From Parazoarcus communis SWub3 = DSM 12120 (GTDB lineage: Bacteria > Pseudomonadota > Gammaproteobacteria > Burkholderiales > Rhodocyclaceae): a stretch of DNA of 64,000 bases. The notes below the pieces were generated by a model. That model was not told where the DNA came from. It ran no database searches and saw only the letters and a list, made by a program, of their open reading frames with translations. Made by a program: the position numbers and the translations under genes. The number at the start of each line of letters is the position of its first letter. Within the stretch, counting starts at the first letter, position 1. The stretch is from NCBI RefSeq assembly GCF_003226565.1, contig NZ_QKOE01000001.1, forward strand, positions 62,001 through 126,000, written 5' to 3'. This document shows positions 3,455-16,937 of the stretch, in pieces.

Positions 3455-4795
3455 GTGAACACAAGCCAAGGCACTCAGCACCGCATTACCTGGCATACGC
3501 ACTATGCCCTCGCGATGCTGGCGATCATTTACGTCTTCAATTACATCGATCGCCTGGTGATATCGATCCTGATCGAGCCGATCAAGCTCGAGTTCGGCAT
3601 CTCCGACACCCAGATCGGCCTGCTGTCCGGGGTCGCGTTCGCGATCTTCTACACGCTGTTCGGCCTGCCCTTCGGCCGCCTCGCCGACCGCATTGGCCGC
3701 AAGCCGGTGATCGCGCTCGCCTGCATCGCCTGGAGCGCGATGACCATGTTGTGCGGGGTGGCGACGAGCTTCGCCATGCTGCTGCTGTTCCGCATCGGGG
3801 TGGCGGTGGGCGAGGCCGGTGGCACCGCACCGTCGGTCGCGATGGTCTCCGACCTTTATCCGCCCGAGAAGCGCTCGCGTGCGCTGTCGGTCTTCCTGAT
3901 GGGTCCAAGCCTGGGTGCCGTCCTCGGCCTGGGCCTGGGCGGCTGGATCGCGCAGGAGTACGGCTGGCGCACCGCCTTCATCGTCATCGGCGCGCCCGGG
4001 GTGCTGCTCGGCATGCTGCTGTGGCTCACCGTGCGAAGCCCGGCCGTCCCTGTGCGCCCCCAGCCCGCGGCCGGCGCACCGAAGGAAGACTGGCAGACGA
4101 CGCTGCGCGAGATGCTCGCCACACCGGCCTTCGTCCTCGTCGTCACAGCCGGGACGCTGGCCGCCGTCATGGGCTATGCAATCGGCACCTGGAACCCGAG
4201 CTTCCTGATCCGCTCTCACGGGCTGACCGTGCAGCAGGCCGGCCTGCTGGTCGGACTTGGCGGGGGCATCTGTTCCACCATCGGCACACTCGTGTGTGGC
4301 AGCGTCACCGACCGCCTGGTCGCGCGCGATCCGGGCTGGCAACTGCTGATTCCGGTCGTGGGCTGCGTGGTCAGCGTCCCGCTCGGGCTTGCCTTCTATC
4401 TGTGGCCGGCCGACGTCGCCTTCCACATCGGCTCGCTGCCGGTTCCCGAAGCCTTCCTGTTCTACCTGGCGTTCAGCTTCACCGCGATCTGGTGGTCAGT
4501 CCCCTGCTTCGGCGCCATCAGCCACCTTTTTCCGCCAAACCGCCTGGCTCAGGCGACGGCGATCTTCGTGATGTCGATGACGCTTCTCGGCGTCGGCTTG
4601 GGGCCGATCATCGTCGGCACGCTGTCGGACGTCTTCAACCCGGAGCTGGGTCAGGAAGCCCTGCGCTACGCACTGGCGGCCTCGGTGCTGCTGTATCTGG
4701 TGTCCGCGGCCTGCCTGCTGGCGGCCGTCGGACGCTATCGCCGCAAGCTGCGCGCCAGTGCGATGCCGCCTGCCGCCGCAGCCGCAAGCGCCTGA
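3455..4795 (+). CDS. MFS transporter (Spinster-like)
   Basis: Inner-membrane carrier of 446 residues with about 12 hydrophobic segments. The first begins at YALAMLAIIYVFNYIDRLVI, the loop 2-3 motif reads GRLADRIGRKP, and a GWRTAFIVIGAPGVLLG motif follows helix 6. This arrangement is usual for Spinster-type major facilitators. It is the first gene of a + strand operon with a C-C hydrolase and a reductase and is controlled by box B. Its place at the head of a catabolic operon suggests uptake of the growth substrate or export of an intermediate; direction and substrate are inference. Confidence 0.88.
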   Translation: MNTSQGTQHRITWHTHYALAMLAIIYVFNYIDRLVISILIEPIKLEFGISDTQIGLLSGVAFAIFYTLFGLPFGRLADRIGRKPVIALACIAWSAMTMLCGVATSFAMLLLFRIGVAVGEAGGTAPSVAMVSDLYPPEKRSRALSVFLMGPSLGAVLGLGLGGWIAQEYGWRTAFIVIGAPGVLLGMLLWLTVRSPAVPVRPQPAAGAPKEDWQTTLREMLATPAFVLVVTAGTLAAVMGYAIGTWNPSFLIRSHGLTVQQAGLLVGLGGGICSTIGTLVCGSVTDRLVARDPGWQLLIPVVGCVVSVPLGLAFYLWPADVAFHIGSLPVPEAFLFYLAFSFTAIWWSVPCFGAISHLFPPNRLAQATAIFVMSMTLLGVGLGPIIVGTLSDVFNPELGQEALRYALAASVLLYLVSAACLLAAVGRYRRKLRASAMPPAAAAASA

Positions 4796-4831
4796 ACAAC
4801 CGACTCGAAACCTATCCCTGGAGATGACCCG

Positions 4832-5662
4832 ATGAACTCACCCGATCTGCCGATTCCCCTCGACCGCTTCATCGAACTGGACAATGGTCTTCGACTGCAT
4901 TACCTCGACGTCGGCAAGGGACCTGTTGTCGTGTGGCTTCACGGCAGCGGGCCGGGCGCGAGCGGTTACAGCAACTTCAAGGGCAACTACCCGGCCTTCG
5001 CCGCGGCGGGCTTTCGCAACATCGTGCTCGACCTGCCCGGCTTCGGGCGCTCGGACAAGCCCGCCGACGTGCAGTACAACCTCGACTTCTTCGTCGCCAA
5101 TCTGAACGCTTTCCTGGGCAAGATCGGCGTGGCGAAATGTACCCTGCTCGGCAACTCGCTGGGTGGCGCGATCGCCCTGGGCCAGGCGCTGGCCCACCCG
5201 GACACGGCCGAGCGGCTGATCCTGATGGCGCCAGGTGGCGTCGAGGAACGCGAGACCTACTTCAAGATGGAAGGCATCGTGCGCATGGTCGAGACCTTCG
5301 CCAAGGGCCCGATGGGACCGCTCGAGATGCGCCACGTCATGAGTCTGCAGGTATTCGATCCCTCGATGCTCGACGACAGCATCATCAACGAACGCGCGGC
5401 CATCGCCCCCTCGCAGCCGGCCAACCTGTTCTCGACCATGATGGTCCCGAACATGACCACGCGCCTGCACGAGATCAAGGCGCCGATCTTCGGCTTCTGG
5501 GGCACCGACGACAAGTTCAACCCGCACACCGGCGCGCTGAAGGTGATCGAGAACGCCCCCAACGCGCGCATGATCCTGCTCAACCGCTGCGGCCATTGGG
5601 TACAGGTGGAGCACAGCGACCTCTTCAACCGCAGCTGCATCGACTTTCTGACCAAAGGGTAA
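4832..5662 (+). CDS. Alpha/beta hydrolase, meta-cleavage-product (BphD/TesD/HsaD) type
   Basis: 276-residue alpha/beta hydrolase resembling C-C bond hydrolases of aromatic and steroid ring cleavage. It carries the HGSGPGASGYSNF oxyanion-loop motif (residues 37-49) typical of BphD, MhpC, TesD and HsaD, the nucleophile elbow GNSLGG (Ser109), an acid in WGTDDKF (Asp226) and the catalytic His255 in NRCGHW. It starts 36 bases after the transporter and is followed after 8 bases by a flavoprotein gene. In testosterone degraders TesD cleaves the 4,5-9,10-diseco product, but no extradiol dioxygenase is in this window, so the substrate may be a different beta-diketone or vinylogous ketone. Confidence 0.85.
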   Translation: MNSPDLPIPLDRFIELDNGLRLHYLDVGKGPVVVWLHGSGPGASGYSNFKGNYPAFAAAGFRNIVLDLPGFGRSDKPADVQYNLDFFVANLNAFLGKIGVAKCTLLGNSLGGAIALGQALAHPDTAERLILMAPGGVEERETYFKMEGIVRMVETFAKGPMGPLEMRHVMSLQVFDPSMLDDSIINERAAIAPSQPANLFSTMMVPNMTTRLHEIKAPIFGFWGTDDKFNPHTGALKVIENAPNARMILLNRCGHWVQVEHSDLFNRSCIDFLTKG

Positions 5663-5670
5663 GCCACACC

Positions 5671-7803
5671 ATGGGATCCTTCGACAACCTGCTGCAGCCC
5701 GGCCGCATCGGCAAGATGGAAGTGCGCAACCGCATCGTGATGGCGCCGATGGGGTCGAACTTCGCCGAAGCCGACGGCACCTGCGGTGAACGCATCCAGG
5801 CCTATTACGAGGCGCGCGCCGCAGGCGGCGCCGGCCTGCTGACCATGGGCGTGGTCTCCATCGCCTATCCGCACGGCACCGCCGAGCCCTTCCAGGTGGG
5901 CATCTCGGACGACAGCTTCATTCCCGGGCTCAAGGGCATCGTCGACCGCGTGCACAAGCACGGCGCGAAGATCGCCGCGCAGTTGCAGCACGCCGGCAAG
6001 ACCGCGGTGCGCGACCTCGCCGAGGGTCGCGAGCTGTGGGTGCCATCCATGCCCCCAGCAGTGAAGACCGACATGTTCGCCGCGCTGACGCAGGAAGAAC
6101 TCGGCGCCTTCATCAGTTCGTCGAAGGGCCGCGAAAAGGCGGGCGTCAAGATCCGTGTCATGGACAAGGCCGACATCGCGCAGATGATCGAGTGGTTCGC
6201 CGCCGCAGCCGACCGTGCCAAACGCGCCGGCTTCGACGGCGTCGAGATCCACGCCGCGCACACTTACATCATCGCAGGCTTCCTGTCGGGCTACTTCAAC
6301 AAGCGCGACGATGAATACGGTGGTTCGATCGAGAACCGCGGCCGTTTCCTGCGCGAGGTGATCGCCGCAGTGCGCCAGCGCATCGGCGCCGACTACCCGG
6401 TGTGGCTGCGTCTCGACGCCTACGAACTGCGCATGGAGGGCGGCATCACGCTGGACGAGGCCAAGGTCTTCGCGCGCATGGCCGAGGCCGCCGGTTGCGA
6501 CGCCGTCAGCGTCTCGGCCTATGCCAACACCAGCACCGGCGTCGCCTTCACCGAAGCGCCGCTGGTGCAGCAGAAGGCAGGTTTCCTGCTGTGGGCAGCC
6601 GAGATCAAGGAGGCGGTGAAGATTCCGGTCATCGCCGTCGGCCGCCTCGAGCCCGAGGTCGCCGACAACGCCATCGCCGCAGGCCAGTGCGACTTCGTCG
6701 CCATGGCGCGCAAGATGCTCGCCGACCCCGAATTGCCCAACAAGCTGATCGAGAACCGCCCCGAGGACATCCGGCCCTGTATCTACTGCTACGCCTGCGT
6801 CAGCCAGATCTTTGTCAACCAGCGCGTCAAATGCGCGGTCAACCCGATGACCGGCCATGAGGCCGAGATCCGCCTGGTGCCAGCCGTCAAACCGGGCCAC
6901 GTGCTCGTCGTCGGCGGCGGCCCGGCGGGCATGGAGGCCGCGCGCACCGCCGCGCTGCGCGGTCACAAAGTCACCCTGGTGGAGCGCAGCGGCCGGCTGG
7001 GCGGCACGCTGTTCTTCGCCGCACTGGCCTACGCCGAGAACGGCGCCCTGCTCGACTACCTGAGCACGCAGATGAAGAAACTCGACATCGACGTGCATCT
7101 CAACACCGTCGCCACCCCCGACCTCGTCCGCCAGCTTGGCGCCACCGCAGTCATCGTCGCCACCGGCGCCGAACGCAATGCGCCACCGATCCCCGGCGCC
7201 GACATGGACCATGTGTGGTCGGGCGATGAGTTGCGCCGGCTGATGACCGATGACCGCGCGGACGAGATCGCCAAACGCAAGTTGTCCTTCACCCAGCGCA
7301 CGCTGATGAAGGCCGGCAGCCTGGTCGGCGTCACCGACAGCACCGACGCCATCCAGAACCTGTCACGGGTATGGATGCCACTTGGCAAGAAGGTCGCCAT
7401 CATCGGCGGCGGCCTGGTGGGCATCGAACTGGCCGAGTTCCTCGTCGACCGCGGCCGCGAGGTCGTGGTGCTGGAAGAAGGCCCCAGCCTGGGCCGCGAG
7501 CTGTCGATCGTGCGCCGCTGGCGGGTGCTGGACACCCTGCGCCAGCACGGCGTGGCGCTGCACACCAAGGTGAAGGTCGACTCGATCGACAAGAAGGCGG
7601 TGCGCTACACCGACGCCGAAGGACAGCAACACAGCCTGGCGGCCGATTCGGTCGTACTCGCCGTCGGTGCCCGCCCGGACGACAGTCTGGCGCGTGCGCT
7701 CGAAGCCGCCGGCGTGCCGGTCAGCGCGGTCGGCGACGGCGCGCAGATCGGCTACATCGAGGGCGCCATCAAGTCCGGCATGCTCGCCGGACTGTCGGCC
7801 TGA
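5671..7803 (+). CDS. OYE/2,4-dienoyl-CoA reductase-like FMN, 4Fe-4S, FAD oxidoreductase (BaiCD-like)
   Basis: 710-residue multidomain reductase. Residues 1 to about 350 form an FMN-binding TIM barrel (NRIVMAPMGSN, HAAH pair, YGGSIENRGRF). Cys370, Cys373, Cys376 and Cys388 form a C-x2-C-x2-C-x11-C iron-sulfur site. An FAD/NAD(P) module follows (VVGGGPAGMEAARTAALRG, later IIGGGLVGIELAEFL). This layout matches 2,4-dienoyl-CoA reductase, trimethylamine dehydrogenase and the bile-acid enzymes BaiCD/BaiH that act on 3-oxo-delta4 steroids. The open frame continues upstream into the hydrolase gene; the ATG at 5671 was chosen because the family begins just there. It probably reduces an enone or dienoyl-CoA in the pathway. 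Confidence 0.87.
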   Translation: MGSFDNLLQPGRIGKMEVRNRIVMAPMGSNFAEADGTCGERIQAYYEARAAGGAGLLTMGVVSIAYPHGTAEPFQVGISDDSFIPGLKGIVDRVHKHGAKIAAQLQHAGKTAVRDLAEGRELWVPSMPPAVKTDMFAALTQEELGAFISSSKGREKAGVKIRVMDKADIAQMIEWFAAAADRAKRAGFDGVEIHAAHTYIIAGFLSGYFNKRDDEYGGSIENRGRFLREVIAAVRQRIGADYPVWLRLDAYELRMEGGITLDEAKVFARMAEAAGCDAVSVSAYANTSTGVAFTEAPLVQQKAGFLLWAAEIKEAVKIPVIAVGRLEPEVADNAIAAGQCDFVAMARKMLADPELPNKLIENRPEDIRPCIYCYACVSQIFVNQRVKCAVNPMTGHEAEIRLVPAVKPGHVLVVGGGPAGMEAARTAALRGHKVTLVERSGRLGGTLFFAALAYAENGALLDYLSTQMKKLDIDVHLNTVATPDLVRQLGATAVIVATGAERNAPPIPGADMDHVWSGDELRRLMTDDRADEIAKRKLSFTQRTLMKAGSLVGVTDSTDAIQNLSRVWMPLGKKVAIIGGGLVGIELAEFLVDRGREVVVLEEGPSLGRELSIVRRWRVLDTLRQHGVALHTKVKVDSIDKKAVRYTDAEGQQHSLAADSVVLAVGARPDDSLARALEAAGVPVSAVGDGAQIGYIEGAIKSGMLAGLSA

Positions 7804-7822
7804 GTCTTCCCATCGTCCCCGG

Positions 7823-7861
7823 GCCGGGCGCGCGGCACCCATGCCGCCGCCCGGCTTTTTT
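7823..7861 (+). terminator. Rho-independent terminator
   Basis: A long GC-rich stem (GCCGGGCG...CGCCCGGC with one bulge, loop around ACCCAT) followed by six T. It lies between the flavoprotein stop and the next NTF2-like gene, so it may limit transcription of the latter. Confidence 0.8.
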
Positions 7862-7909
7862 CATCTCCGCCCACCCCACACAGGGGCGACGCCCCCGCGG
7901 GAGCACACG

Positions 7910-8365
7910 ATGAGTACCGCCGCCACCGCAATCTGCAACCTCCTCTACCGCTACGCGGAAGCCATCGACGAAGGCCGCCTCGAGGACGCTGCCGCCCTTT
8001 TCCGCCACGCCCGCATCGAAACCGGCGCCGCTGGCCCACTCGACGCCGACGGCCTGCTCGCCCTGTGGCGCAAGATCCTCGTCATCCACCCCTGCGGCAC
8101 CCCCCGCACCCGCCACCTCGTCACCAACCCCATCCTCGAAATCAATGAGGCGGCCGGCACCGCGCAGGTCCGTTCATGCTTCACCGTGATGCAGGCCACC
8201 GACGACCTCCCGCTGCAGATCATCGCCAGCGGCCGCTACCGCGACCGCTTCGCTCGTATCGACGGCGAGTGGTGTTTCGTCGAGCGCGACTACCGCCAGC
8301 TCGACTTCGCCGGCGACCTCAGACAGCATCTGCGGATCGCAATCAAGCCAGGACCGCGCCTCTGA
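7910..8365 (+). CDS. SnoaL/NTF2-like protein
   Basis: 151-residue NTF2-fold protein: helix AICNLLYRYAEAIDEGR, LFRHARIE, TRHLVTNPILEI, then strands SCFTVMQAT and IASGRYRDRFARIDGEWCFVERDY. The pattern is that of SnoaL-like proteins of the scytalone-dehydratase/steroid-isomerase superfamily. GGGAG stands 6 bases before the ATG. It follows a terminator, so it is the last and possibly attenuated gene of the + strand operon. It is the second NTF2-like protein in the first 8.4 kb, and the two are not obvious duplicates. Role unknown; isomerisation or dehydration of a pathway intermediate is plausible. Confidence 0.75.
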   Translation: MSTAATAICNLLYRYAEAIDEGRLEDAAALFRHARIETGAAGPLDADGLLALWRKILVIHPCGTPRTRHLVTNPILEINEAAGTAQVRSCFTVMQATDDLPLQIIASGRYRDRFARIDGEWCFVERDYRQLDFAGDLRQHLRIAIKPGPRL

Positions 8366-8737
8366 AGGCTGCAGCGACGACGGACTTGCAATAGGCCCAG
8401 CGGGCTAACGAATGCTGGGGGGGTGGCGGGTTGTCGGCCTGACCTGCAGTTGGGGTTTTGCACCAGGAACGACTGCAATGAGACGGTCAGCGGTCGTAGC
8501 CCAGAAATTCTGGTCGAGTGACCGCTTGTCATTTCAGGCTACTTCCGGAGCCGACCCAATTCGGCCATTTGTATCCGACCTGGTTCACCGACAGGCATCT
8601 TCTCTAACCGGCCATCCCGCTTAGCCAAAATCTGAATAGTTTGGCCATTGAGATCAATCACAACTGATCGGTAACGTCAGGTATATGGACCACTGCAGCC
8701 CTGGCGCGAACAGCTGCCGCATTTGGCGAAAAGGAAG
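8366..8737. other. Intergenic stretch at the edge of a lower-GC insert
   Basis: No complete gene. GC content falls here and stays lower up to about 11.5 kb. On the - strand a coherent frame without ATG runs from a GTG at 8661 to a TAG at 8539 (40 residues, starting VIDLNGQTIQILAKRDGRLE). It is closed by a TGA a few codons upstream and may be the decayed end of a lost gene. No integrase, inverted repeat or target duplication was found. Confidence 0.4.
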
Positions 8738-9754
8738 TTATAGCTTCATGCCAGTCTTTTCGGCGATCTTCGCTGCAAGGCTCTTGAAGTCCCTTTTCGC
8801 ATCCGAGACTGCATTGGCGTGACTACCAATGGCCCCGTCCGCTGAGGTGAGATTAAAAATGGGTTTGCGATATTCCTGAGCCATGGGTATCAGGCTACGG
8901 TAGTGCTTGATAGTTGCAAGGCAGTACGGATCGTCCTCCTGCCTCATATTCTCCACCGGCTCTTCATTCAGAATATCCCTTCGATAGACTGCCGGAATCC
9001 TCTGCACCCACTTGTCGTAGGCCCTAACCGGACGGTCAAGCCGAACGCCATGCTGTTGACACAAGTAACCTATGGGCATCATCCGACCAACAGGGAGCCG
9101 GAAGTCGGGGTACATGGACCTATCGGTGCTGTCGCGCCAGTTTTCCAGTCGCTTCTGCCAAAGACTCTTCCAACTTTTCAGCGTTGGTCCCAAGTTGCTC
9201 AAGCCTTGCAGCGAAAAGAGGTCGGCCCCGAGAGGGATGGCGACATAATCGGTTGCCAACAGTACTGAACGATTAATAGCGCCTAAATTAGGACCAATAT
9301 CGACAAGAATTATGTCAGCCTGAACCTTTTCTACCGCCATTTGCATGACTTGCCAGAAAGACGTCAGGATCCGCATGGGGCGGTATAAATTATTGTCTCC
9401 CATGCTAGCTGGCCATTCCGCCGAGAGCGCATCCTCAAAGCTCGATAACGCGACGTCACCCGGTAGCAGATAGAGATCCGTAGCGATGTTTTGCAAGACC
9501 GGAGGGACAATATCTCCTACGCCTGTTAGCGGCTTGACGCACTGGTAAATCGTTGAACCCGGATGGCGCTCAGTCCATAGCTGTTCAATCCGATCTTCAT
9601 CCAGAAACGCGGCTGTAAGGTTTGCCTGCGGGTCCAAGTCCACGATTACCACTCGCTTACGAAGACTCGCAAACATCCACGCTAGATGATATATGAGAGA
9701 GGTCTTTCCTACCCCTCCCTTGTTGTTAAAGAAAGTTAATACTGGTGCGTTCAC
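8738..9754 (-). CDS. ParA/MinD-type ATPase
   Basis: 338-residue P-loop ATPase of the ParA superfamily. It has the deviant Walker A NNKGGVGKTS (residues about 10-19), the A' motif DLDPQANLT and the Walker B-like ILVDIGPNLGAINR. About 100 residues after the core are unlike plasmid ParA. No ParB or parS-like neighbour is present. Its start overlaps the stop of the AlbA_2 protein by four bases (9751-9754), so the two are translated together. Lower GC than the flanks suggests transfer. The pair resembles an accessory, possibly defence-related, module rather than a partition system; that is inference. Confidence 0.85.
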   Translation of the reverse strand: MNAPVLTFFNNKGGVGKTSLIYHLAWMFASLRKRVVIVDLDPQANLTAAFLDEDRIEQLWTERHPGSTIYQCVKPLTGVGDIVPPVLQNIATDLYLLPGDVALSSFEDALSAEWPASMGDNNLYRPMRILTSFWQVMQMAVEKVQADIILVDIGPNLGAINRSVLLATDYVAIPLGADLFSLQGLSNLGPTLKSWKSLWQKRLENWRDSTDRSMYPDFRLPVGRMMPIGYLCQQHGVRLDRPVRAYDKWVQRIPAVYRRDILNEEPVENMRQEDDPYCLATIKHYRSLIPMAQEYRKPIFNLTSADGAIGSHANAVSDAKRDFKSLAAKIAEKTGMKL

Positions 9755-10959
9755 GATTTTCTTCTCAGCAGGCAGACTACTGCACTCTGGTTAGTCAAGA
9801 ATTCAGGGGGTGGATTTCCATTTACTTCCATCACTCGTCGTGCCGTGGCAATGCCTCGGCCAAAGGACTGAATAAATCCAAAAGTTTTCAAGACATCCGC
9901 AATATTAGGGTTCCGATAGTCGGTGATGCCTGGGGCGCCAAAGTTCTCACTGGTAACGTTGCCGTAAGGACCGCCAGGACTATTTATCTCGATCCGATCA
10001 TTGAACCAGTACACCCGAATTGGCGTGTTAGTCCCTTCGTAAACGCGATGGAGCACCGCGTTATATAGGATTTGCTGAAGCGCTGCCTGAGGGTATGGCG
10101 TGTCAATTTGATGGGTGGCTGCTGCAGTTATGTCGACAGCGGTCCGATTGTGGGCCTTGAGCTTTTCCTCTGCGCGCCGAAGCATCTCTACAATCCCGCC
10201 ACCGATTTCTTCTTCGTCAATGACGGGGTCTGCAAGCTCGACTCCATCAATTCTGAGAAACTGAACATATGCTCCAGGCAGGAAGTCCTGAGGACTCTTT
10301 CCGATTGCCAACAATCCCATTAAGGTCGGAGTGGTTTCCGTCGGGGAGACAATCATGCGACATGAGGCTAGACGTTCTTCATAGCTGCGCCCATTGGCCT
10401 CAAGCACGTCTTCTGCAAAGGCTTGCGGCAAATACTCGTTCTCGAAGATACTTTTCGAAAGATCGGTAAGCTTTGCCGTCGGCACAGGGTAAATATCGAA
10501 GGGCAGGTTCTTGAAACGACGCCTTTCATTAAGGATCCGCTCCTCCTGCTCGTTTGCTAACGCTCGACGAGGACCCGTGCGAATCCAGATTCGACCATCG
10601 TACTTCACGGGAGGCATATCGGACGGCATGACGGTCACAACGGCGACCTCGGCACCTTTAAGCACACGCTTTTCCACAGAAAGTACTGGCAAAGGAAGAA
10701 TATTGCCGTCAGTCTTCATATCTGCGAGCGACATCAGCAATTGATCCGTCACGTCAAGGCCACTCGGCTCCCCGTTATCCTTGACTCCAATGAACAAGAC
10801 TCCTGGCCGACTGTGGCCGGGCAAATCGTTGGCAAATGCACAAACTGCTTGTCGCGCCTTTTTGGGGACGTCCCCCTTGAATGATTCCTTGCGCTCAGCA
10901 CGATCAGACTCAAGGTCCTCCAGGAGATTCACCAGTTCGTGATCGTTTAGTCGCTGCAT
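9751..10959 (-). CDS. Schlafen/AlbA_2 domain plus HATPase_c_4 protein (RecG-like putative regulator)
   Basis: 402-residue protein. Residues about 15-130 form an AlbA_2 domain (ESFKGDVPKKARQAVCAFANDLPG, GVLFIGVKDNGEPSGLDV, PPVKYDGRIWIRTGPR). Residues about 270-380 resemble the C-terminal HATPase_c_4 region (QILYNAVLHRVYEG, DRIEINSPGG, FGRGIATARRVM). Proteins of this build are called ATP-binding proteins or putative transcriptional regulators, and some Schlafen-like domains act as RNases. The gene is first of a two-gene unit with the ParA-like ATPase. A possible -10 AATAAT lies about 15-25 bases upstream. Function not known. Confidence 0.83.
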   Translation of the reverse strand: MQRLNDHELVNLLEDLESDRAERKESFKGDVPKKARQAVCAFANDLPGHSRPGVLFIGVKDNGEPSGLDVTDQLLMSLADMKTDGNILPLPVLSVEKRVLKGAEVAVVTVMPSDMPPVKYDGRIWIRTGPRRALANEQEERILNERRRFKNLPFDIYPVPTAKLTDLSKSIFENEYLPQAFAEDVLEANGRSYEERLASCRMIVSPTETTPTLMGLLAIGKSPQDFLPGAYVQFLRIDGVELADPVIDEEEIGGGIVEMLRRAEEKLKAHNRTAVDITAAATHQIDTPYPQAALQQILYNAVLHRVYEGTNTPIRVYWFNDRIEINSPGGPYGNVTSENFGAPGITDYRNPNIADVLKTFGFIQSFGRGIATARRVMEVNGNPPPEFLTNQSAVVCLLRRKS

Positions 10960-11553
10960 TTCATGTGCCTCAAAGCAATTATTCCCTTAGCGGGTTAAGA
11001 CTGATCGGGGTGCCTTACCTAAGAGCACGACAGCGCTGCTATGTTCAGCGGCTGCGTTGAATACCGCTTTGAACGCGAGGGTTTCTGCTCTCGGTCAAGT
11101 CTACCTGTTCAGGTTACGTTGAGGAACGTTACGGCACAAGAACTATGACCCGGCTAGAACTGCTGAGCCTAATCCGGATGGGCATGGGTAAGTCTTCATC
11201 CAATCTATACTGATCTGGACTGGGGCCGCACCACTACGAAGCCTGCGTTACGCGCCTAGATCGTTGCAGGTATCCGAGTAAGGCGGTCGTTCAACTGCAT
11301 AGCCTGTCCAATCGACGAAGGGCCGCTTCTGGCCGATACCGCCAGTTCGATGAACAAGTGACCTCCTGCCGTTCGACCCGCACTGAACGCCGTGCGGCAG
11401 CTGCCCGCTGTAAAGCCGCCACTCATTCGGCGCAAGCTGAACGGCTCCTCAGGCCGAGCTCCTGTCGCTGGATGATCAGGCCTCCCCCGCAAAAGCCCGA
11501 CGCCGTTCACGCAGATGCAAACCATCCAGCGTTGCCTTGACGCGAAAGATCAA
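10960..11553. other. Gene-poor stretch with a possible AlbA_2 gene remnant
   Basis: 594 bases without a convincing gene. On the + strand a 22-codon frame at 11145-11213 begins MTRLELLSLIRMG, which looks like the start of AlbA_2 proteins (commonly MTRxELLELI...G) but stops at once; it may be the scar of a second such gene. The part from about 11250 to 11540 has GC-rich open frames on both strands with no recognisable protein features. Confidence 0.4.
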
Positions 11554-12162
11554 TCACCACGGCAAGAACTGCGCGACCCGCGAAATCATCTCGGTTGCAA
11601 GCCGGGCGCCGCCCCACCATAGCAGCGCGACCGAAGCGAGTGCGGCCAACGTGACCAGATGGCCCGTCAGCAGCATCAGGCCATCGCGAAGACGCAGCCC
11701 CCACGAGATCAGCACGATGGCAAGTGCCGGCAACACGTTGTCAAAGCTGATGATGGGCACAGGCACCATCATCGACAAACCGGCAAGCGAAAGCATCACC
11801 CCATTTGCCACCCGCGCGGGTCTGTTGCTGAGCGCGAGCATGCGTGGCCGCCCCAGCCGCGCCACTACACCGACGACCCGGTCGACCGCCCGCTTGAGCA
11901 CGGTGACGGCACGGCCGTTGAGCTCGCGCTGAGCCAGCCAGCGCGGTAGCGGCACTGGCTGACCGAGACACAGCCCGAGTGCGATGAACAGGCAGAACGC
12001 CCCCACCGCGGAAGCCATGCCCGGCAAGGCCACCGGAAAGAGCAGCGGCATCGCCAGCATGCTCAACCATACCAGCCGCTGCCGATGGCTCTGGCCGACG
12101 GTGTCGGCCATCGAGCCTCCCAGCGCGGCAAGCTGGGCGTCGGCGATGCGCTCCACGAACAC
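11554..12162 (-). CDS. ExoD family membrane protein
   Basis: Small membrane protein of the ExoD family (exopolysaccharide synthesis protein of Rhizobium), about 200 residues as usual. It has three to four hydrophobic segments (WLSMLAMPLLFPVALPGMAS, VGAFCLFIALGLCLG, VMLSLAGLSMMVPVPIISF, LPALAIVLISWGLRLRDG, LVTLAALASVALLWWGG) separated by a basic amphipathic loop. The frame is open further upstream, but that part overlaps the divergent kinase promoter and does not look like ExoD. I chose GTG at 12162, preceded by AGGGAG; GTG 12222 and ATG 12111 are alternatives. Molecular role unclear. Confidence 0.75.
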   Translation of the reverse strand: MFVERIADAQLAALGGSMADTVGQSHRQRLVWLSMLAMPLLFPVALPGMASAVGAFCLFIALGLCLGQPVPLPRWLAQRELNGRAVTVLKRAVDRVVGVVARLGRPRMLALSNRPARVANGVMLSLAGLSMMVPVPIISFDNVLPALAIVLISWGLRLRDGLMLLTGHLVTLAALASVALLWWGGARLATEMISRVAQFLPW

Positions 12163-12434
12163 CCTCCGTCGCTCCCTGGAACAAGCGGACCGGCTTTGCG
12201 AGGCAAGAAACTTGTCTGTCACGATGCTACAGATTCCCCCAATCAACCAGACCGGAGCCGACATGCGCTGATCGAGCTGCCGGCACATTTGGATGGTCAG
12301 ACGCGAATCAGCACTTGCCGGTTCCCCGTCCGGCCGCTCGCCCGGTGCATCGTGCCACAGGACAGGCACATCAAACCATGGCAGCATGCAGACACGCTCG
12401 ATGATGCTGTCACCCGGAGGCCACCGATAAGGAC

Positions 12435-13469
12435 ATGACCGATTGTTTACCCACCGAGCGGGATGGCGCGAACGGCGCATGGCGCGGCTGCCCGCCGGCT
12501 CCCGCCATTGACCCGGCATCGCCCTTGCTGTTCGTGATCAACGCCTCGGCGGGTGCCCTGGACCTCGATGCCAAACGCGCGGTCATCCAGGCTGCCCTGG
12601 CCAGCCACGGACGCAAGGGCGAGTTGCTGAGCTGCAACCCAGGCAATCTGGCACAGGTAGCCACCGCGGCAGCGGTGCGGGCGCTGGAGCGCAATACTGC
12701 GGTGATTGCAGTTGGCGGCGACGGCAGCCTCAACACGGTGGCCCAGGCGGCACATGCGGCCGGCTGTGCGATGGGAGTCATTCCGTATGGCACCTTCAAT
12801 TATTTCGCCCGGGCCCACGGCATTCCCACCGAACCATTGGCAGCGGCCCGGCTGTTGCTGGATGCCCGGCCACAGCCGGTGCAGGTCGGTGGCATCAACG
12901 ACCGGGTGTTCCTCGTCAATGCCAGCCTGGGCATCTACCCTGAGCTGCTGCAAGACCGCGAGGCCTTCAAGGCCCGCTTCGGACGCAGCCGGTGGGTTGC
13001 CTTCATCGCCGCATGCAACACCCTGCTGCGCGCCCAACGCCGGCTGCGCCTGCACATCGACACCGGCATCGACGTCCGTGATCTGCAGACCCTGACACTG
13101 TTCATCGGCAACAATCCACTGCAGTTGCAGCAGTTTGGCGCCGAACCGGCTGACACCCTTGCCGGCACGCCGGGCGACGGCAGCCTGGCGGCACTGGTGC
13201 TACGCCCCATCGGCACGGTGGCGATGATCCGCTTGATGTTGCACGGCGCCATGGGCCGGCTGGGTGAAGCGGCCGGGATCGAGAGCTTCGAGTTCCTGAG
13301 CATGGTGGTGAAACCCCGGCTGTCACGCGGTCACAGGACCGTCAAGATCGCTTTTGATGGCGAGGTTGCACGCATGCGCACCCCCATCGACATCCGTGTG
13401 CTGGATCAACCCTTGTACCTGCTCAAGGCACCTGCAAGCACAAGCGCCACGCGCCCACCCGGACCATGA
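12435..13469 (+). CDS. Diacylglycerol kinase-family lipid kinase
   Basis: 344-residue enzyme with the DAGK catalytic domain: LLFVINASAGALD near residue 31, the nucleotide motif AVGGDGSLNTVAQAAH (residues about 95-110), GVIPYGTFNYFARAHGIP, and a C-terminal half with NASLGIYPELLQ, as in YegS/BmrU/LCB5-like kinases. It phosphorylates diacylglycerol or a related membrane lipid. AAGGAC precedes the ATG. One base separates its stop from the metallophosphoesterase ATG, so the two are coupled. It is divergent from exoD. Substrate is inference. Confidence 0.88.
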   Translation: MTDCLPTERDGANGAWRGCPPAPAIDPASPLLFVINASAGALDLDAKRAVIQAALASHGRKGELLSCNPGNLAQVATAAAVRALERNTAVIAVGGDGSLNTVAQAAHAAGCAMGVIPYGTFNYFARAHGIPTEPLAAARLLLDARPQPVQVGGINDRVFLVNASLGIYPELLQDREAFKARFGRSRWVAFIAACNTLLRAQRRLRLHIDTGIDVRDLQTLTLFIGNNPLQLQQFGAEPADTLAGTPGDGSLAALVLRPIGTVAMIRLMLHGAMGRLGEAAGIESFEFLSMVVKPRLSRGHRTVKIAFDGEVARMRTPIDIRVLDQPLYLLKAPASTSATRPPGP

Positions 13470-13470
13470 C

Positions 13471-14292
13471 ATGAGCGTGATACTGCAGATCTCCGATACC
13501 CATTTCGGCACCGAACGGGCCGCGGTGGTCGAGGCCCTGGTGACGCTGGCCCTGCAGCAGCGCCCCACGCTGGTGGTGCTGTCGGGTGATATCACCCAAC
13601 GCGCGACGTCCGCACAGTTCCGTGCCGCCAAAGCCTTCGTCGATCGTCTGGGCGCACCTGTTCTGGCGGTGCCGGGAAACCATGACATCGACCTGTTCAA
13701 CCTGTGGACGCGAATGACCCGACCCTATGCCCGTTATGCCAGGGTGTTCGGCACAGACCTGGAGCCGGTGCACACCTCGCCAGACCTGCTTGTGATCGGC
13801 GTCAATACCACCCGCAGCTGGCGACACCGCAACGGCGAGCTCTCCGGCAAGCAGATCGGTCGCGTCAGCGGCCTGCTGGCCACGGCTCACCCCGGGCAAC
13901 TGCGCGTGGTGGTGGTGCATCAGCCAATCGCCGTTCCGAGGACCGTGAAGCGGACCCCACTGCTGCGCGGCCATCGTGCGGCGCTCAAGGCCTGGTCCGC
14001 AGCGGGCGCCGATCTGATCATGGGGGGTCACATCCACCTGCCCTACACCCTGGAGGTGCACGGACTGGCACGCCCGCTATGGGTGCTGCAGGCCGGCACC
14101 GCCATCTCGTCTCGCACCCGCCCCAACGCATCCAATTCGGTTAACATCCTGCGCTGGGGCGAGCATGAGGATCACCGCCACTGCCTGATCGAACGCTGGG
14201 ACTATGCCCTTACTGCACGCGCCTTCATTCACAGCACAACCGACACCATCTGGCCGGAGCGCGTCTGGCCACCCCGCACCCGGGACGGTTGA
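13471..14292 (+). CDS. Calcineurin-like metallophosphoesterase
   Basis: 273-residue enzyme with all class motifs of the binuclear metal fold: ISDTHFG (residues 6-12), LSGDIT, VPGNHDID, VVVVHQPI and GGHIHLP. Related proteins include CpdA (cAMP phosphodiesterase) and UDP-2,3-diacylglucosamine hydrolase-like enzymes. The frame extends upstream within the kinase gene, but the ATG at 13471 lies exactly before the conserved first strand. Tight pairing with a lipid kinase suggests it acts on a phospholipid head group or counteracts the kinase; this is inference. Confidence 0.87.
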   Translation: MSVILQISDTHFGTERAAVVEALVTLALQQRPTLVVLSGDITQRATSAQFRAAKAFVDRLGAPVLAVPGNHDIDLFNLWTRMTRPYARYARVFGTDLEPVHTSPDLLVIGVNTTRSWRHRNGELSGKQIGRVSGLLATAHPGQLRVVVVHQPIAVPRTVKRTPLLRGHRAALKAWSAAGADLIMGGHIHLPYTLEVHGLARPLWVLQAGTAISSRTRPNASNSVNILRWGEHEDHRHCLIERWDYALTARAFIHSTTDTIWPERVWPPRTRDG

Positions 14293-14333
14293 CTGCAAAC
14301 CGGCCACGCACGCATCAAGCCGTTCAATGGCGT

Positions 14334-15755
14334 TCAGTCGCTGCCGGCCCTCGCCTTCATCTGCCAGGCGGCGACCAACGCCAAGCCGAAGCACCCCGCC
14401 AACAGCATGAAAGCTTCCGCATAGGCGAGTGCAAGATCTGCCGCCTCACCATGCGTCATGGTGCGCCACTCGACGAACACCGCAACAATGGCCACCCCCA
14501 GCACACCACCAAACTGACGGGTGTAGTTGCTGACCATTGCGGCCTGCCCATAGTGCGAGGCTGTCACACGACTGAGCGAAGCGACGGTCAGCGCAGGAAT
14601 GGTCAGGCCAAGGCCAAGACGCCCCAGCAGACTGTAGGCCACGACCTCCTCATAGCTGATGGCACCGCCGCGCAGTGCATAGGGCACGAACGACACACCG
14701 AACAGCGCCAGGCCGATCATCGTGATCCAGCGCGGGTCATAGCGATCGGCAAGCAGCCCGCCAGCGGGAATCGCAAGTGCCAGCAGCAGGCCGGAAGGCA
14801 GCAGGGCGAGCCCGGCAAGGGTCGCATCGTAGCCAAGCGCATTGAGCAGGAACACCGGGATCAGGTAGGTGGAAGCGTACAGGCCAAAGCCATAACTCAC
14901 GCCCACCACCGCGCCCATGGTAAAGCAGCGCTCACGGAACAAGCCCAACCCGACAATGGGATGACTGACACGCCCGGCATGACGCACAAACCCGATGACG
15001 CACAGCACGCTCAAGGCCAGCACCGCCAACGTCCAGACCCCGGTTGGCCCGTACTGCCGGAGGCTGGCAATGAAATCGATTGCCAGCAAGGAGGCTGCGC
15101 ACAGCAGGCCGACACCCAGCCAGTCGAACGGATGGGGTGCAGCTGACGCAGCGCGGGGCAACAGGCGCAGGCCAAGCCCACCCGCCAGTACGCAGAATGG
15201 CAGGCTCATCAGGAAGATCGCCGGCCAGCCGAAATGATCGAGCAGCACGCCGGCCACGGAAGGGGCCACGGCCGGGGCCAGCACGATGCCAAAGCCCAGC
15301 AGGCCATGTGCCCTGCCCTGACTGCCGGCCGGAAACAGGCGCATCACCAGCAGCATCGGCAAGGGCTGCAGCAGGCCGGCGGCCACACCCTGCACAACAC
15401 GCATCGCGACCAGAAAACCAAACCCTTCGGCCAGCGCACCCGCAATGCTGCTCAGGGCGAGCAGCAGGTTGGCCCCCAGGAACAAGCGGCGAAAGCCGAC
15501 TCGGTCAAGCAGCCACGGCGTCGGCAACATGGCCACCGTGAGCGCGGCCAGAAAGCCGGTGACCGCCCACTGCACCCGATCCTGCCCCAGATCGAAATGC
15601 TGCCCGAGTGCCGGCACAGCAACGTTGAAGCTGCTGGTGGCAAGCACGGCGGCAATGGTCGCCAACGCAACCACAGCCAGCGCCAGCCACTTGTAGGCGG
15701 CACCGTACTGCGCATGCAGCGATTCGAGTGTGGGCGCTTCAGTCAGCCCGCGCAT
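14334..15755 (-). CDS. MFS transporter, DHA2 (14-TM drug/H+ antiporter) type
   Basis: 473-residue inner-membrane protein with about 14 hydrophobic segments. VALATIAAVLATSSFNVAVPAL is helix 1 and VQGVAAGLLQPLPMLLVMRLFP with a nearby GRAHGLLGFGIVLAPAVAPSVAG is the drug-antiporter motif C region, as in EmrB/QacA. It starts 33 bases after the stop of an acyl-CoA dehydrogenase on the same strand and may be the last gene of the side-chain operon. Export of toxic steroid intermediates or of the substrate itself is a reasonable guess. Confidence 0.86.
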   Translation of the reverse strand: MRGLTEAPTLESLHAQYGAAYKWLALAVVALATIAAVLATSSFNVAVPALGQHFDLGQDRVQWAVTGFLAALTVAMLPTPWLLDRVGFRRLFLGANLLLALSSIAGALAEGFGFLVAMRVVQGVAAGLLQPLPMLLVMRLFPAGSQGRAHGLLGFGIVLAPAVAPSVAGVLLDHFGWPAIFLMSLPFCVLAGGLGLRLLPRAASAAPHPFDWLGVGLLCAASLLAIDFIASLRQYGPTGVWTLAVLALSVLCVIGFVRHAGRVSHPIVGLGLFRERCFTMGAVVGVSYGFGLYASTYLIPVFLLNALGYDATLAGLALLPSGLLLALAIPAGGLLADRYDPRWITMIGLALFGVSFVPYALRGGAISYEEVVAYSLLGRLGLGLTIPALTVASLSRVTASHYGQAAMVSNYTRQFGGVLGVAIVAVFVEWRTMTHGEAADLALAYAEAFMLLAGCFGLALVAAWQMKARAGSD

Positions 15756-15788
15756 GCACTGCCCTATACCGGTCCGGCACGGATGCGC

Positions 15789-16937
15789 CTACTGCGGGCT
15801 CAGTTCGCCGAAACGCTGTACATGGAAGTCCCCATCGCCCAAGCTGGCCTGAGCAACGCGGATACGCTTCAGGTACAGGCCGACGTCCAGCTCGTCAGTG
15901 ACGCCCATGCCGCCATGCATCTGTACCGCCTCGCGACTGATGCGATGTGCAACCTCGCCCGCCTTCCATTTTGCCAGGCTGGCCATGCGTGCACGGGCCG
16001 CAGCATCGAGCGCGGGATCGTCCAGCGCAGCCAGCCCGGCCATCACCGTACTGCGTGCAAGCTGCAGCTGGGCAAAACACCATGCTGCACGGTGCTGCAA
16101 GGCCTGAAAGCTGCCAATCGGCACATCAAACTGCACCCGCGTCTTCAGGTACTCGACTGTCGCGTCAAACAGGCTTTGCGTGGCGCCCAGCAGTTCGGCA
16201 GCCAGACAGACGCGCCCCCGGTCCAGGGCCGCGTCGAGTGCCTGGAATCCCTCACCCTCGACCCCCAGCAGCGTCGCTGCAGCAAGGCGCACGTCCTGCA
16301 GCACGAGATTGGCGTGATTGCGCGCATCCAGGGTCTTCATGGCTGACACCTGCAAGCCCGGCGCACCGGCCGGCACGAGGAACAGGCTGATGCCTGCACG
16401 CTCGCCCGCCAGTCCGCCGGTGCGTGCGGCAACGACGAAGGCATCCGCCCCAATGCCGTCGGCGACGAACGCCTTGGCGCCATTGAGCACGTAGTCCTCT
16501 CCGTCACGCGTCGCGGTCAAGGCAACGGCGGCGGGGTCATGGCGCGGCTGCTCGTCAAGCGCCAGCGCAATCCGCTTTTCACCAGCAATCAGCGCCGCCA
16601 TCCATTCGGCCTGCTGCGCCGCGGAACCGGCCAGCTCGATCACACCACCGCCGAGCACGACGCTCGACAACAGCGGCGAGGCCGACAGGTTGCGGCCAAT
16701 CTGTTCGAATACCGCCCCCAGTCCCTTGCAACCAAAGGCCAGGCCGCCAACCGCCTCGGGGAAGGGGATGGCGCTCCAGCCCATATCGACCATCTCGCGC
16801 CACAGCGCGGCGTCAAAACCCTCGGCTACGCCCGCATCACGCAGCTTGCGCTGGGCGGCGACCGGGCTTTTCGCCATCAGGAACTCGGCGGCTGTGTCGG
16901 CCAGCAGTTGCTGCTCTTCGGAATAAACCAGACTCAT
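15789..16937 (-). CDS. Acyl-CoA dehydrogenase, probable non-catalytic subunit
   Basis: 382-residue acyl-CoA dehydrogenase-fold flavoprotein. The general architecture is intact (GKSP/FAD region, TRVQFDVPIGSFQALQH, HGGMGVTDELDVGLYLKRI). However, the helix-G position that carries the base in isovaleryl-type enzymes is Gly (LDRGRVCLAAELLG), and the MCAD-type YEG position near the end is GDGDFH. In mycobacterial steroid dehydrogenases (ChsE1-ChsE2, ChsE4-ChsE5), one subunit of the alpha2-beta2 tetramer lacks the base. I infer this is such a partner of the next upstream gene, 13 bases away. Substrate would be a steroid side-chain acyl-CoA. Confidence 0.85.
   Translation of the reverse strand: MSLVYSEEQQLLADTAAEFLMAKSPVAAQRKLRDAGVAEGFDAALWREMVDMGWSAIPFPEAVGGLAFGCKGLGAVFEQIGRNLSASPLLSSVVLGGGVIELAGSAAQQAEWMAALIAGEKRIALALDEQPRHDPAAVALTATRDGEDYVLNGAKAFVADGIGADAFVVAARTGGLAGERAGISLFLVPAGAPGLQVSAMKTLDARNHANLVLQDVRLAAATLLGVEGEGFQALDAALDRGRVCLAAELLGATQSLFDATVEYLKTRVQFDVPIGSFQALQHRAAWCFAQLQLARSTVMAGLAALDDPALDAAARARMASLAKWKAGEVAHRISREAVQMHGGMGVTDELDVGLYLKRIRVAQASLGDGDFHVQRFGELSPQ

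Follow-up and report, generated by a model that had tools for sequence, protein, structure and literature searches.

A mobile gene pair of a ParA-type ATPase and a Schlafen/AlbA_2-HATPase protein in Parazoarcus communis is one branch of a ParA family with swapped effectors

The stretch of DNA analysed here, 64,000 nucleotides of contig NZ_QKOE01000001.1 (positions 62,001 to 126,000) from Parazoarcus communis SWub3 = DSM 12120 and hereafter called the window, carries on its minus strand two overlapping genes that encode a Schlafen-type protein with an AlbA_2 and a GHKL-type HATPase domain (Slf) and a ParA/Soj-type ATPase (Table 1). The slf gene, with an ATG start, is transcribed first and is followed by parA, which has a GTG start. 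From the overlap of the two genes we infer that they are translationally coupled. The same 4-bp overlap was present in 58 of 99 slf loci compared here and an overlap of 25 bp in 29 others (longest open reading frame (ORF) calls with an uncertain start codon). The GC content was 0.505-0.522 in 1-kb windows between positions 8501 and 11000 and 0.61-0.69 in most other nearby windows. An initial annotation of this DNA had described a low-GC two-gene unit with a four-base overlap, and ORF coordinates and GC windows confirm this description.

Table 1. Features of the ParA-slf pair, with positions counted from the first letter of the window.
Feature	Position	Strand	Basis
ParA/Soj-type ATPase, 338 aa, second gene of the pair, proposed sensor/gate	8738..9754	-	Pfam AAA_31 3.4e-27
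SLFN_AlbA_2 + HATPase_c_4 protein (Slf), 402 aa, first gene, proposed RNase effector	9751..10959	-	Pfam
4-bp gene overlap	9751..9754	-	ORF coordinates
Transferred unit by DNA homology	8738..11008	-	match to nearest relative (L003) spans 8751-11008
SLFN_AlbA_2 domain of Slf, residues 17-131	10567..10911	-	Pfam 1.4e-14
E17-x4-E22 of Slf, predicted RNase carboxylates	10894..10911	-	E17 and E22 in 72/73 clade rows
D61 of Slf, third predicted RNase carboxylate	codon 10777-10779	-	69/73 clade rows
N-box Q296-x3-N300 of Slf	10060..10074	-	N300 in 73/73 clade rows
HATPase_c_4 (GHKL-type nucleotide-binding) domain of Slf, residues 312-394	9778..10026	-	Pfam 1.7e-18
Deviant Walker A of ParA, K12-GGVGK-T18	9701..9721	-	K12 in 81/84, K17 in 83/84 clade rows
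Walker B region of ParA, D152-x-G-P-N156	9287..9301	-	D152 in 83/84 clade rows and 18/18 distant rows

The main scan, with the window ParA as query and one genome per species, returned 63 loci. ParA was 48-88% identical to that of the window in 62 of them, and slf was found upstream of parA in all 62 profile-filtered loci, in a few as broken pieces; the 63rd locus (L064) was a partial ParA match of 39% identity without partner that failed the profile filter. The loci are labelled as Pseudomonadota, Thermodesulfobacteriota, Planctomycetota, Spirochaetota, Synergistota, Chlorobiota, Bacteroidota, Rhodothermota, Kiritimatiellota, Cloacimonadota, Poribacteria, Verrucomicrobiota and others, many being metagenome bins whose phylum labels may err. 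Culture-collection strains among them are Thiolinea disciformis DSM 14473 (L048) and Simplicispira metamorpha DSM 1837 (L054). A fairer test than this ParA-seeded scan is a class-wide sample of 369 genomes in which each protein was searched separately. Leaving the window genome aside, ten of these genomes encoded a ParA of at least 50% identity and nine of the ten also encoded slf, the exception (G473) having its ParA beside a restriction-modification (R-M) type gene. Full-length slf of at least 40% identity occurred in nine genomes, all nine with ParA, and two further genomes held slf fragments with no ParA match. Pairwise distances of ParA and Slf were correlated with r 0.92 over 81 loci and 0.71 over the 43 loci of the main clade, values that none of 1000 permutations reached. 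The pairing is far beyond chance, and chance neighbours were rejected as an explanation because the pair recurs in the filtered loci and in the class sample. The initial annotation had read one gene as an orphan ParA and the other, to which it is coupled, as a Schlafen/AlbA_2-HATPase protein, a proposal that would have been refuted had the two not recurred together; it is supported by Pfam and by the recurring upstream position of slf. An all-vs-all comparison of flank genes revealed no third component, the next recurring flank family being present in 4 of 63 loci, partner fragments aside.

The ParA-slf pair constitutes an autonomously mobile module of two genes, since DNA homology is confined to the pair, no third gene accompanies it, its GC content is lower than that of its surroundings and its occurrence in the host family is patchy. 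Specifically, comparison of the window DNA with the 63 loci gave matches inside the pair in 61 of them and a single match, of 143 bp, outside it. The pair was lower in GC than its flanks in 51 of 55 loci, and phyla are intermixed in the ParA tree. Of 297 sampled genomes of the host family, 23 had a ParA match at E 1e-20, a count that includes the window genome and distant matches; the four sampled congeners had none. One close member (L008) resides on a named plasmid and distant ParA members on other plasmids. With respect to the insertion site, the kinase gene of the right flank was matched in two of the four congeners, both without the pair (G067, 72-75%; G180, 64-67%). The catabolic genes of the left flank (window 5750-8365) gave only short DNA matches in the four congeners, the longest of 188 bp, so the left flank is variable as well. 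Insertion by a recognisable element was rejected; repeats were only of the short, chance kind, and the sole tRNA gene of the window lies 44 kb off.

Nine neighbouring ORFs (3455-8365 and 11554-16937) belong by Pfam to transporter, hydrolase, flavin oxidoreductase, SnoaL, ExoD, diacylglycerol kinase, metallophosphatase and acyl-CoA dehydrogenase families. Among these nine, Pfam detected neither ParB nor a mobility gene nor any defence family, in agreement with the initial annotation, which had noted the lack of the first two and had placed the insert between catabolic and cell-envelope genes. About 600 bp separate slf from the next gene (10960-11560), without clear coding content and of no clear origin; an 81-bp stretch therein shares 79% identity with a plasmid of Azoarcus sp. 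KH32C. No promoter-like matches were found, and terminators were at chance level.

The ATPase motifs of ParA are intact as judged from the alignment. Both Walker lysines (K12 and K17) are kept in 18 of 18 distant ParA rows, and D39/D41 and D152 are near-invariant. Besides AAA_31, Pfam matched CbiA, and NCBIfam returned only ParA-superfamily matches far under the cut-off. The AlphaFold model (for ParA as for Slf a single chain) reached pLDDT 89 and pTM 0.89. Its nearest structure in the PDB was 3pg5, with E 7.3e-18 in the fold search and 1.8e-41 in the profile search, followed by Soj/ParA structures. No model of PADLOC-DB 2.0.0 matched ParA or Slf over its full length, which is in line with the initial annotation, where the combination was not recognised as a named system; in ParA only about the first 40 residues matched a model, PDC-M28B.

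Slf is predicted to be an RNase effector, based on the carboxylates of its AlbA_2 domain. The spacing of these carboxylates is 5 and 39 residues and is nearly identical to that of E205/E210/D248 in rSLFN13 (5 and 38). Change of either glutamate, E205 or E210, is described to abolish RNA cleavage by rSLFN13 (PMC5862951). The nearest PDB entry to the Slf model was 3lmm (E 3.6e-19), and weak fold matches (E ~0.005-0.01) were obtained to the rSAMD9 tRNase and to SLFN11/SLFN14. The similarity to vertebrate Schlafen RNases and the SAMD9 tRNase consists of E-x4-E plus a later D at a spacing near that of SLFN13, together with these weak folds; Slf differs in having a single AlbA_2 unit and a C-terminal GHKL domain, and no helicase or SAM domain. 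Pfam likewise found no ParB or winged helix-turn-helix (wHTH) domain in Slf, in which HATPase_c_4 ends at residue 394 of 402, and NCBIfam had no match to it. In GHKL enzymes, the position that corresponds to residue 296 of Slf is usually occupied by the catalytic Glu. Among the 73 clade rows, 62 have Q and 11 have E at this position, and all 4 rows from outside the clade have E. The Gln at the position of the usual catalytic Glu in 62 of 73 rows suggests that in most members the GHKL domain binds nucleotide rather than hydrolysing it. The AlphaFold model of Slf had a pLDDT of 86 and a pTM of 0.60, and because of the latter the arrangement of the domains is unsure. Partial-length PADLOC matches of Slf were to pAgo-associated PNTD/SIR2 proteins and to a pAgo (1.6e-14 to 3.4e-9). 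A distant Slf relative lies in genome G000 (L002) at C166:226717-227748, with 23% identity over residues 53-401 (E 5.6e-5).

Going beyond the initial annotation, our analysis revealed that the ParA-slf pair is one branch of a larger ParA family with swapped effectors. Distant ParA relatives (24-34% identity) on plasmids and in other genomes often precede toxin-type genes. The next gene is annotated as SIR2 in three plasmid relatives, and two other plasmid members are without such a neighbour; a ParA-SIR2 pair is present on a plasmid of Spirosoma (L084), a non-pathogenic host. In nine of ten further loci the next gene matched the Pfam families SIR2_2 (5), RelA_SpoT (2) or HEPN_RiboL-PSP (2). 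In the annotated plasmids inspected, members of the family go under the names 'ParA family protein' or 'AAA family ATPase'. One ParA-SIR2 pair had no match when E. coli genomes were searched for near DNA relatives. When a 19-row profile of the ParA family was run against 349 genomes of the phylum, 35 had a match at E 1e-35. Taken over 131 distinct loci, a total that leans to slf as the largest scan was seeded with the window ParA, the effector was slf in 99, always upstream of ParA, and SIR2 in 12, HEPN in 7, RelA/SpoT in 5 and an unknown family in 3, always downstream. The partner labels come from profile models built partly on the same loci, and the phylum set is least bound to them. From its 39 matching places, 30 were available as loci, of which 26 remained after removal of the window's own and of the duplicates L177, L180 and L187. 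These comprised 15 slf, 4 SIR2, 3 RelA/SpoT, 2 HEPN, 1 unknown family and 1 without partner. At two loci (L134 and L203) the ParA frame is broken and the labelled effector lies 331-407 bp away.

A quick tree of 126 ParAs placed the SIR2 rows in one group (support 99), the HEPN rows in one (90) and those of the unknown family in one (99), with 96 slf rows and two rows without partner on one side of a branch of support 100. The RelA/SpoT label needs two changes on this tree, one of its rows being very long. All effector labels together need 8 changes, as compared to 29.5 in shuffles, on a tree whose deep branches are weak and which does not fix the order of the effector swaps. The swapped effectors keep motifs which we take to be catalytic signatures, namely R-N-x-I-x-H in HEPN, N-x-D and H-G in SIR2, and G-x-R and Y-T-S-x-H in RelA/SpoT. 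A downstream gene for a protein of 232-247 aa, with no Pfam match, is common to three loci (L104:2448-3191, L121:2427-3125, L197:2548-3282) and probably encodes a fifth, undescribed effector.

We favour the explanation, and consider it somewhat probable, that ParA-slf is a self-contained, horizontally transferred two-gene defence module of the abortive-infection or toxin-gatekeeper type. Slf would be its toxic RNase effector, probably acting against tRNA or other structured RNA, with a GHKL domain for which nucleotide binding is likely and, in most members, hydrolysis perhaps not. The ParA-type ATPase would be the constant regulatory part, made in step with Slf through the overlapping genes. 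An ATP-switched ParA dimer may hold Slf in check in a direct complex and thereby gate it, acting as antitoxin, as sensor or as both. An infection cue, possibly a change on the DNA that ParA-like proteins can sit on, would upset the ATP cycle of ParA, upon which Slf would be released or activated and protect against phage. The other branches of the ATPase would control SIR2 (NAD depletion), HEPN (RNase) and RelA/SpoT (alarmone) effectors. An effector able to harm the host, with ParA restraining or timing it, fits the data because the ATPase is constant next to a variable, intact-looking neighbour and because damage is one-sided: among the 99 slf loci, slf was broken or short with ParA intact in 12 and the reverse was seen in none (two-sided binomial 0.0005). 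In five further slf loci slf was broken and ParA was broken, short or cut. For the same two reasons, the constant ATPase with variable effectors and the one-sided damage of slf, a gated effector that is released on infection is favoured.

The genomic context of the relatives was evaluated with 332 proteins of at least 150 aa from the flanks of the 63 loci, which in three batches matched 42, 91 and 19 PADLOC models. Among the best 25 of 42 models in the first batch, the best 25 of 91 in the second and those of the third were BREX (BrxC in at least 5 proteins, BrxF, PglX), DISARM (DrmA, DrmMI) and Shango (SngB, SngC) as well as Ppl (3), Iet, AriA and R-M enzymes, the meaning of the model names being in part what we presume it to be. 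No Pfam family was dominant among the first 115 flank proteins. Searched singly, eight large flank proteins included a BREX BrxC (L059), a Ppl (L036) and a TPR match (L005). Viral contigs carried 26 loci with a ParA match, in which the neighbour was SIR2 in 17, slf in 2 and none recognised in 7, some of these cut by contig ends. The suggestion of the initial annotation that this may be a defence-type pair is supported, and BREX, DISARM, Shango and R-M genes lie near relatives, but the locus in the window is not in a defence island. A large protein of one family, identified as Ppl by PADLOC in L036, is encoded at L004:5607-9424, L024:8476-12398 and L036:8184-12859, where, close to the ParA-Slf pair, its gene adjoins that of a distant AlbA_2 paralogue (26-27%). 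Plasmid matches also included a TrlF-type ATPase beside an 'RNA-binding domain' protein.

Several observations weigh against a defence role. The pair in the window is flanked by metabolic genes and not by a defence island, with a defence family in 0 of 9 neighbours, and five of the eight large flank proteins of the relatives matched nothing. In a control, 121 of 192 proteins taken at random places of related genomes also matched 21 PADLOC models; the 121 proteins cover 13 of 20 stretches, the thirteenth in part, and the genomes themselves carry family members or partner fragments. Thirteen of the models were DpdF with one member each and the rest helicase, cysteine-desulfurase, PolA-like and a few others including mad3; mad3 was matched by 4 control and 5 case proteins. 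As PADLOC tallies count models and not proteins, case and control form a qualitative contrast and not a measured enrichment. Furthermore, many loci come from draft metagenome bins, so that the frame breaks are possibly sequencing errors, though such errors would be expected in both genes alike. Finally, no partner was recognised for five of the 131 ParA members, and two ParAs of viral contigs (L206:4989-5981 and L207:5007-5999, 36-39% identity) stand alone with both flanks present, so that the ATPase may serve a different function. The two solitary ParAs may act as decoys or in counter-defence, or may simply be partition proteins.

The first alternative, a plain toxin-antitoxin (addiction) module, appears unlikely to us but deserves to be taken seriously. 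ParA would then act as antitoxin to the Schlafen RNase, with selfish stabilisation and not phage defence as the main reason why the pair persists. The nearest published idea is of this kind: Anantharaman et al. predicted in 2013 dyads of a HEPN protein (MAE_18760 family) and a ParA/Soj-like ATPase as toxin-antitoxin systems and proposed the ATPase as antitoxin (PMC3710099). The pair described here likewise has a ParA/Soj-like ATPase gene beside a gene of RNase-toxin type (the RNase of the window being predicted), but its toxin is a Schlafen/AlbA_2-HATPase protein encoded upstream of the ATPase and not a HEPN protein. The HEPN partners in the present ParA family match HEPN_RiboL-PSP, and this branch is probably related to the 2013 dyad. 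PF18737 was rejected as the HEPN family of that dyad, as it is HEPN_MAE_28990, a different family, whose 7 loci are without the ParA of this family. Pairings of ParA with Schlafen, SIR2 or RelA were not recognised as described in the open PMC literature, covered mostly at the level of listings. The two-gene, overlapping and mobile architecture suits an addiction module, as does the damage confined to slf, which is expected if ParA is the harmless partner. It is countered by the BREX, DISARM, Shango and R-M genes near some members and by the size of both proteins, each with a nucleotide-binding domain; large proteins with such domains resemble sensing systems more than classical small antitoxins. 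The toxin-antitoxin and the defence reading overlap, and computation cannot separate them.

Improbable in our view is a stress or nucleotide-signalling regulator, in which the GHKL domain would be a nucleotide sensor and the RNase would slow growth by trimming host RNA, with no role against mobile elements. While the conserved N300 with Gln at the usual position of the catalytic Glu and the alarmones suggested by the RelA/SpoT branch would agree with it, the patchy occurrence (23/297 family genomes, 0/4 congeners), the spread across phyla and the carriage on viral contigs fit defence or selfish modules better. As to ParABS, the deviant-Walker-A ATPase is present in the pair but an adjacent ParB is absent by Pfam from Slf and the nine neighbours, Slf is the only widely recurring neighbour in relatives, and the 200 bp upstream of 94 loci contained no common 8-12-mer clearly above the shuffled level (an indirect test of the lack of parS noted in the initial annotation, as no parS pattern was scanned), so that a ParABS unit was rejected and similarity to a known partition unit, which by the initial annotation would have refuted its proposal, is limited to the ParA/Soj-like fold in a family that pairs with toxin-type enzymes. 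A partition or positioning unit in which ParA moves a plasmid, an element or a protein cargo and the AlbA_2 protein replaces ParB as DNA-binding adaptor is similarly improbable, as the Soj/ParA-like fold with its intact deviant Walker A, the name of AlbA_2 as a nucleic-acid-binding domain and the plasmid location of L008 and of distant members are set against the lack of a common upstream DNA element, the lack of any third family, replicon genes included, in the flanks of more than 4 loci or beside the window pair, the pairing of the same ATPase family with SIR2, HEPN and RelA/SpoT enzymes and not with DNA adaptors, and RNase carboxylates retained in the AlbA_2 domain.

Related domain combinations have been described from other systems. 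In a 2026 survey (PMC12839542), fusions of a Schlafen RNase with a minimal histidine kinase and a wHTH are reported as accessory proteins of BREX and BREX-related loci, and a 2025 preprint on the defence role of bacterial Schlafens is cited. Schlafen and a GHKL/histidine-kinase-type domain are common to both forms, and the BREX form has a defence context; the Slf of the window differs by having no wHTH match and by its ParA partner gene, none being mentioned for the BREX form in the passages of the survey that concern it. The preprint, by Taboada et al. (10.1101/2025.07.24.666596), is by its title said to be on Schlafens that mediate anti-phage defence and may or may not include the ParA-Slf pair. 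A 2020 survey of nucleoside triphosphate-dependent conflict systems places MinD/ParA-like domains, predicted to be inactive, among the effectors of other systems, in the sections relevant here (PMC7159879). The main text of DefensePredictor (PMC13092281) does not contain ParA, AlbA, Schlafen, MinD or SIR2 as whole words. The nearest solved structures of ParA and Slf are DIP2308 (3pg5) and DIP2311 (3lmm) of C. diphtheriae, both 'uncharacterized' proteins from structural genomics, 3lmm being longer than Slf with 583 residues and matching its sequence only in the C-terminal part (query 260-389). Since DIP2308 and DIP2311 come from one species and differ by three in locus number, they may be a relative of the ParA-slf pair, and no paper on a pair of this type was found in the open PMC literature.

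ParA/MinD-type ATPases surf on the nucleoid or the membrane to place cargo. We tentatively raise the possibility that they also form an immune-sensor family, in which one lineage, coupled through overlapping genes with at least four exchangeable effectors (Schlafen RNase, SIR2 NADase, HEPN RNase and RelA/SpoT alarmone enzyme) and an unknown fifth, would sense invasion by ATP-timed DNA binding. If true, this would be a defence class of its own, whose sensor is a cell-organising motor and not a STAND, AAA+ or cyclase protein. The ATPase family, found in about one tenth of the sampled genomes of the phylum (35/349), would then be a conserved controller of toxic effectors, a gene overlapping this ParA would serve as a rule for finding new defence genes, and genes known as 'orphan ParA' would be re-labelled. 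The pair would also provide a simple two-gene bacterial setting for how Schlafen RNases are restrained, and it may explain the structures 3pg5 and 3lmm, released in 2010. Altogether, the results suggest a largely overlooked anti-virus defence module that crosses between very different bacteria.

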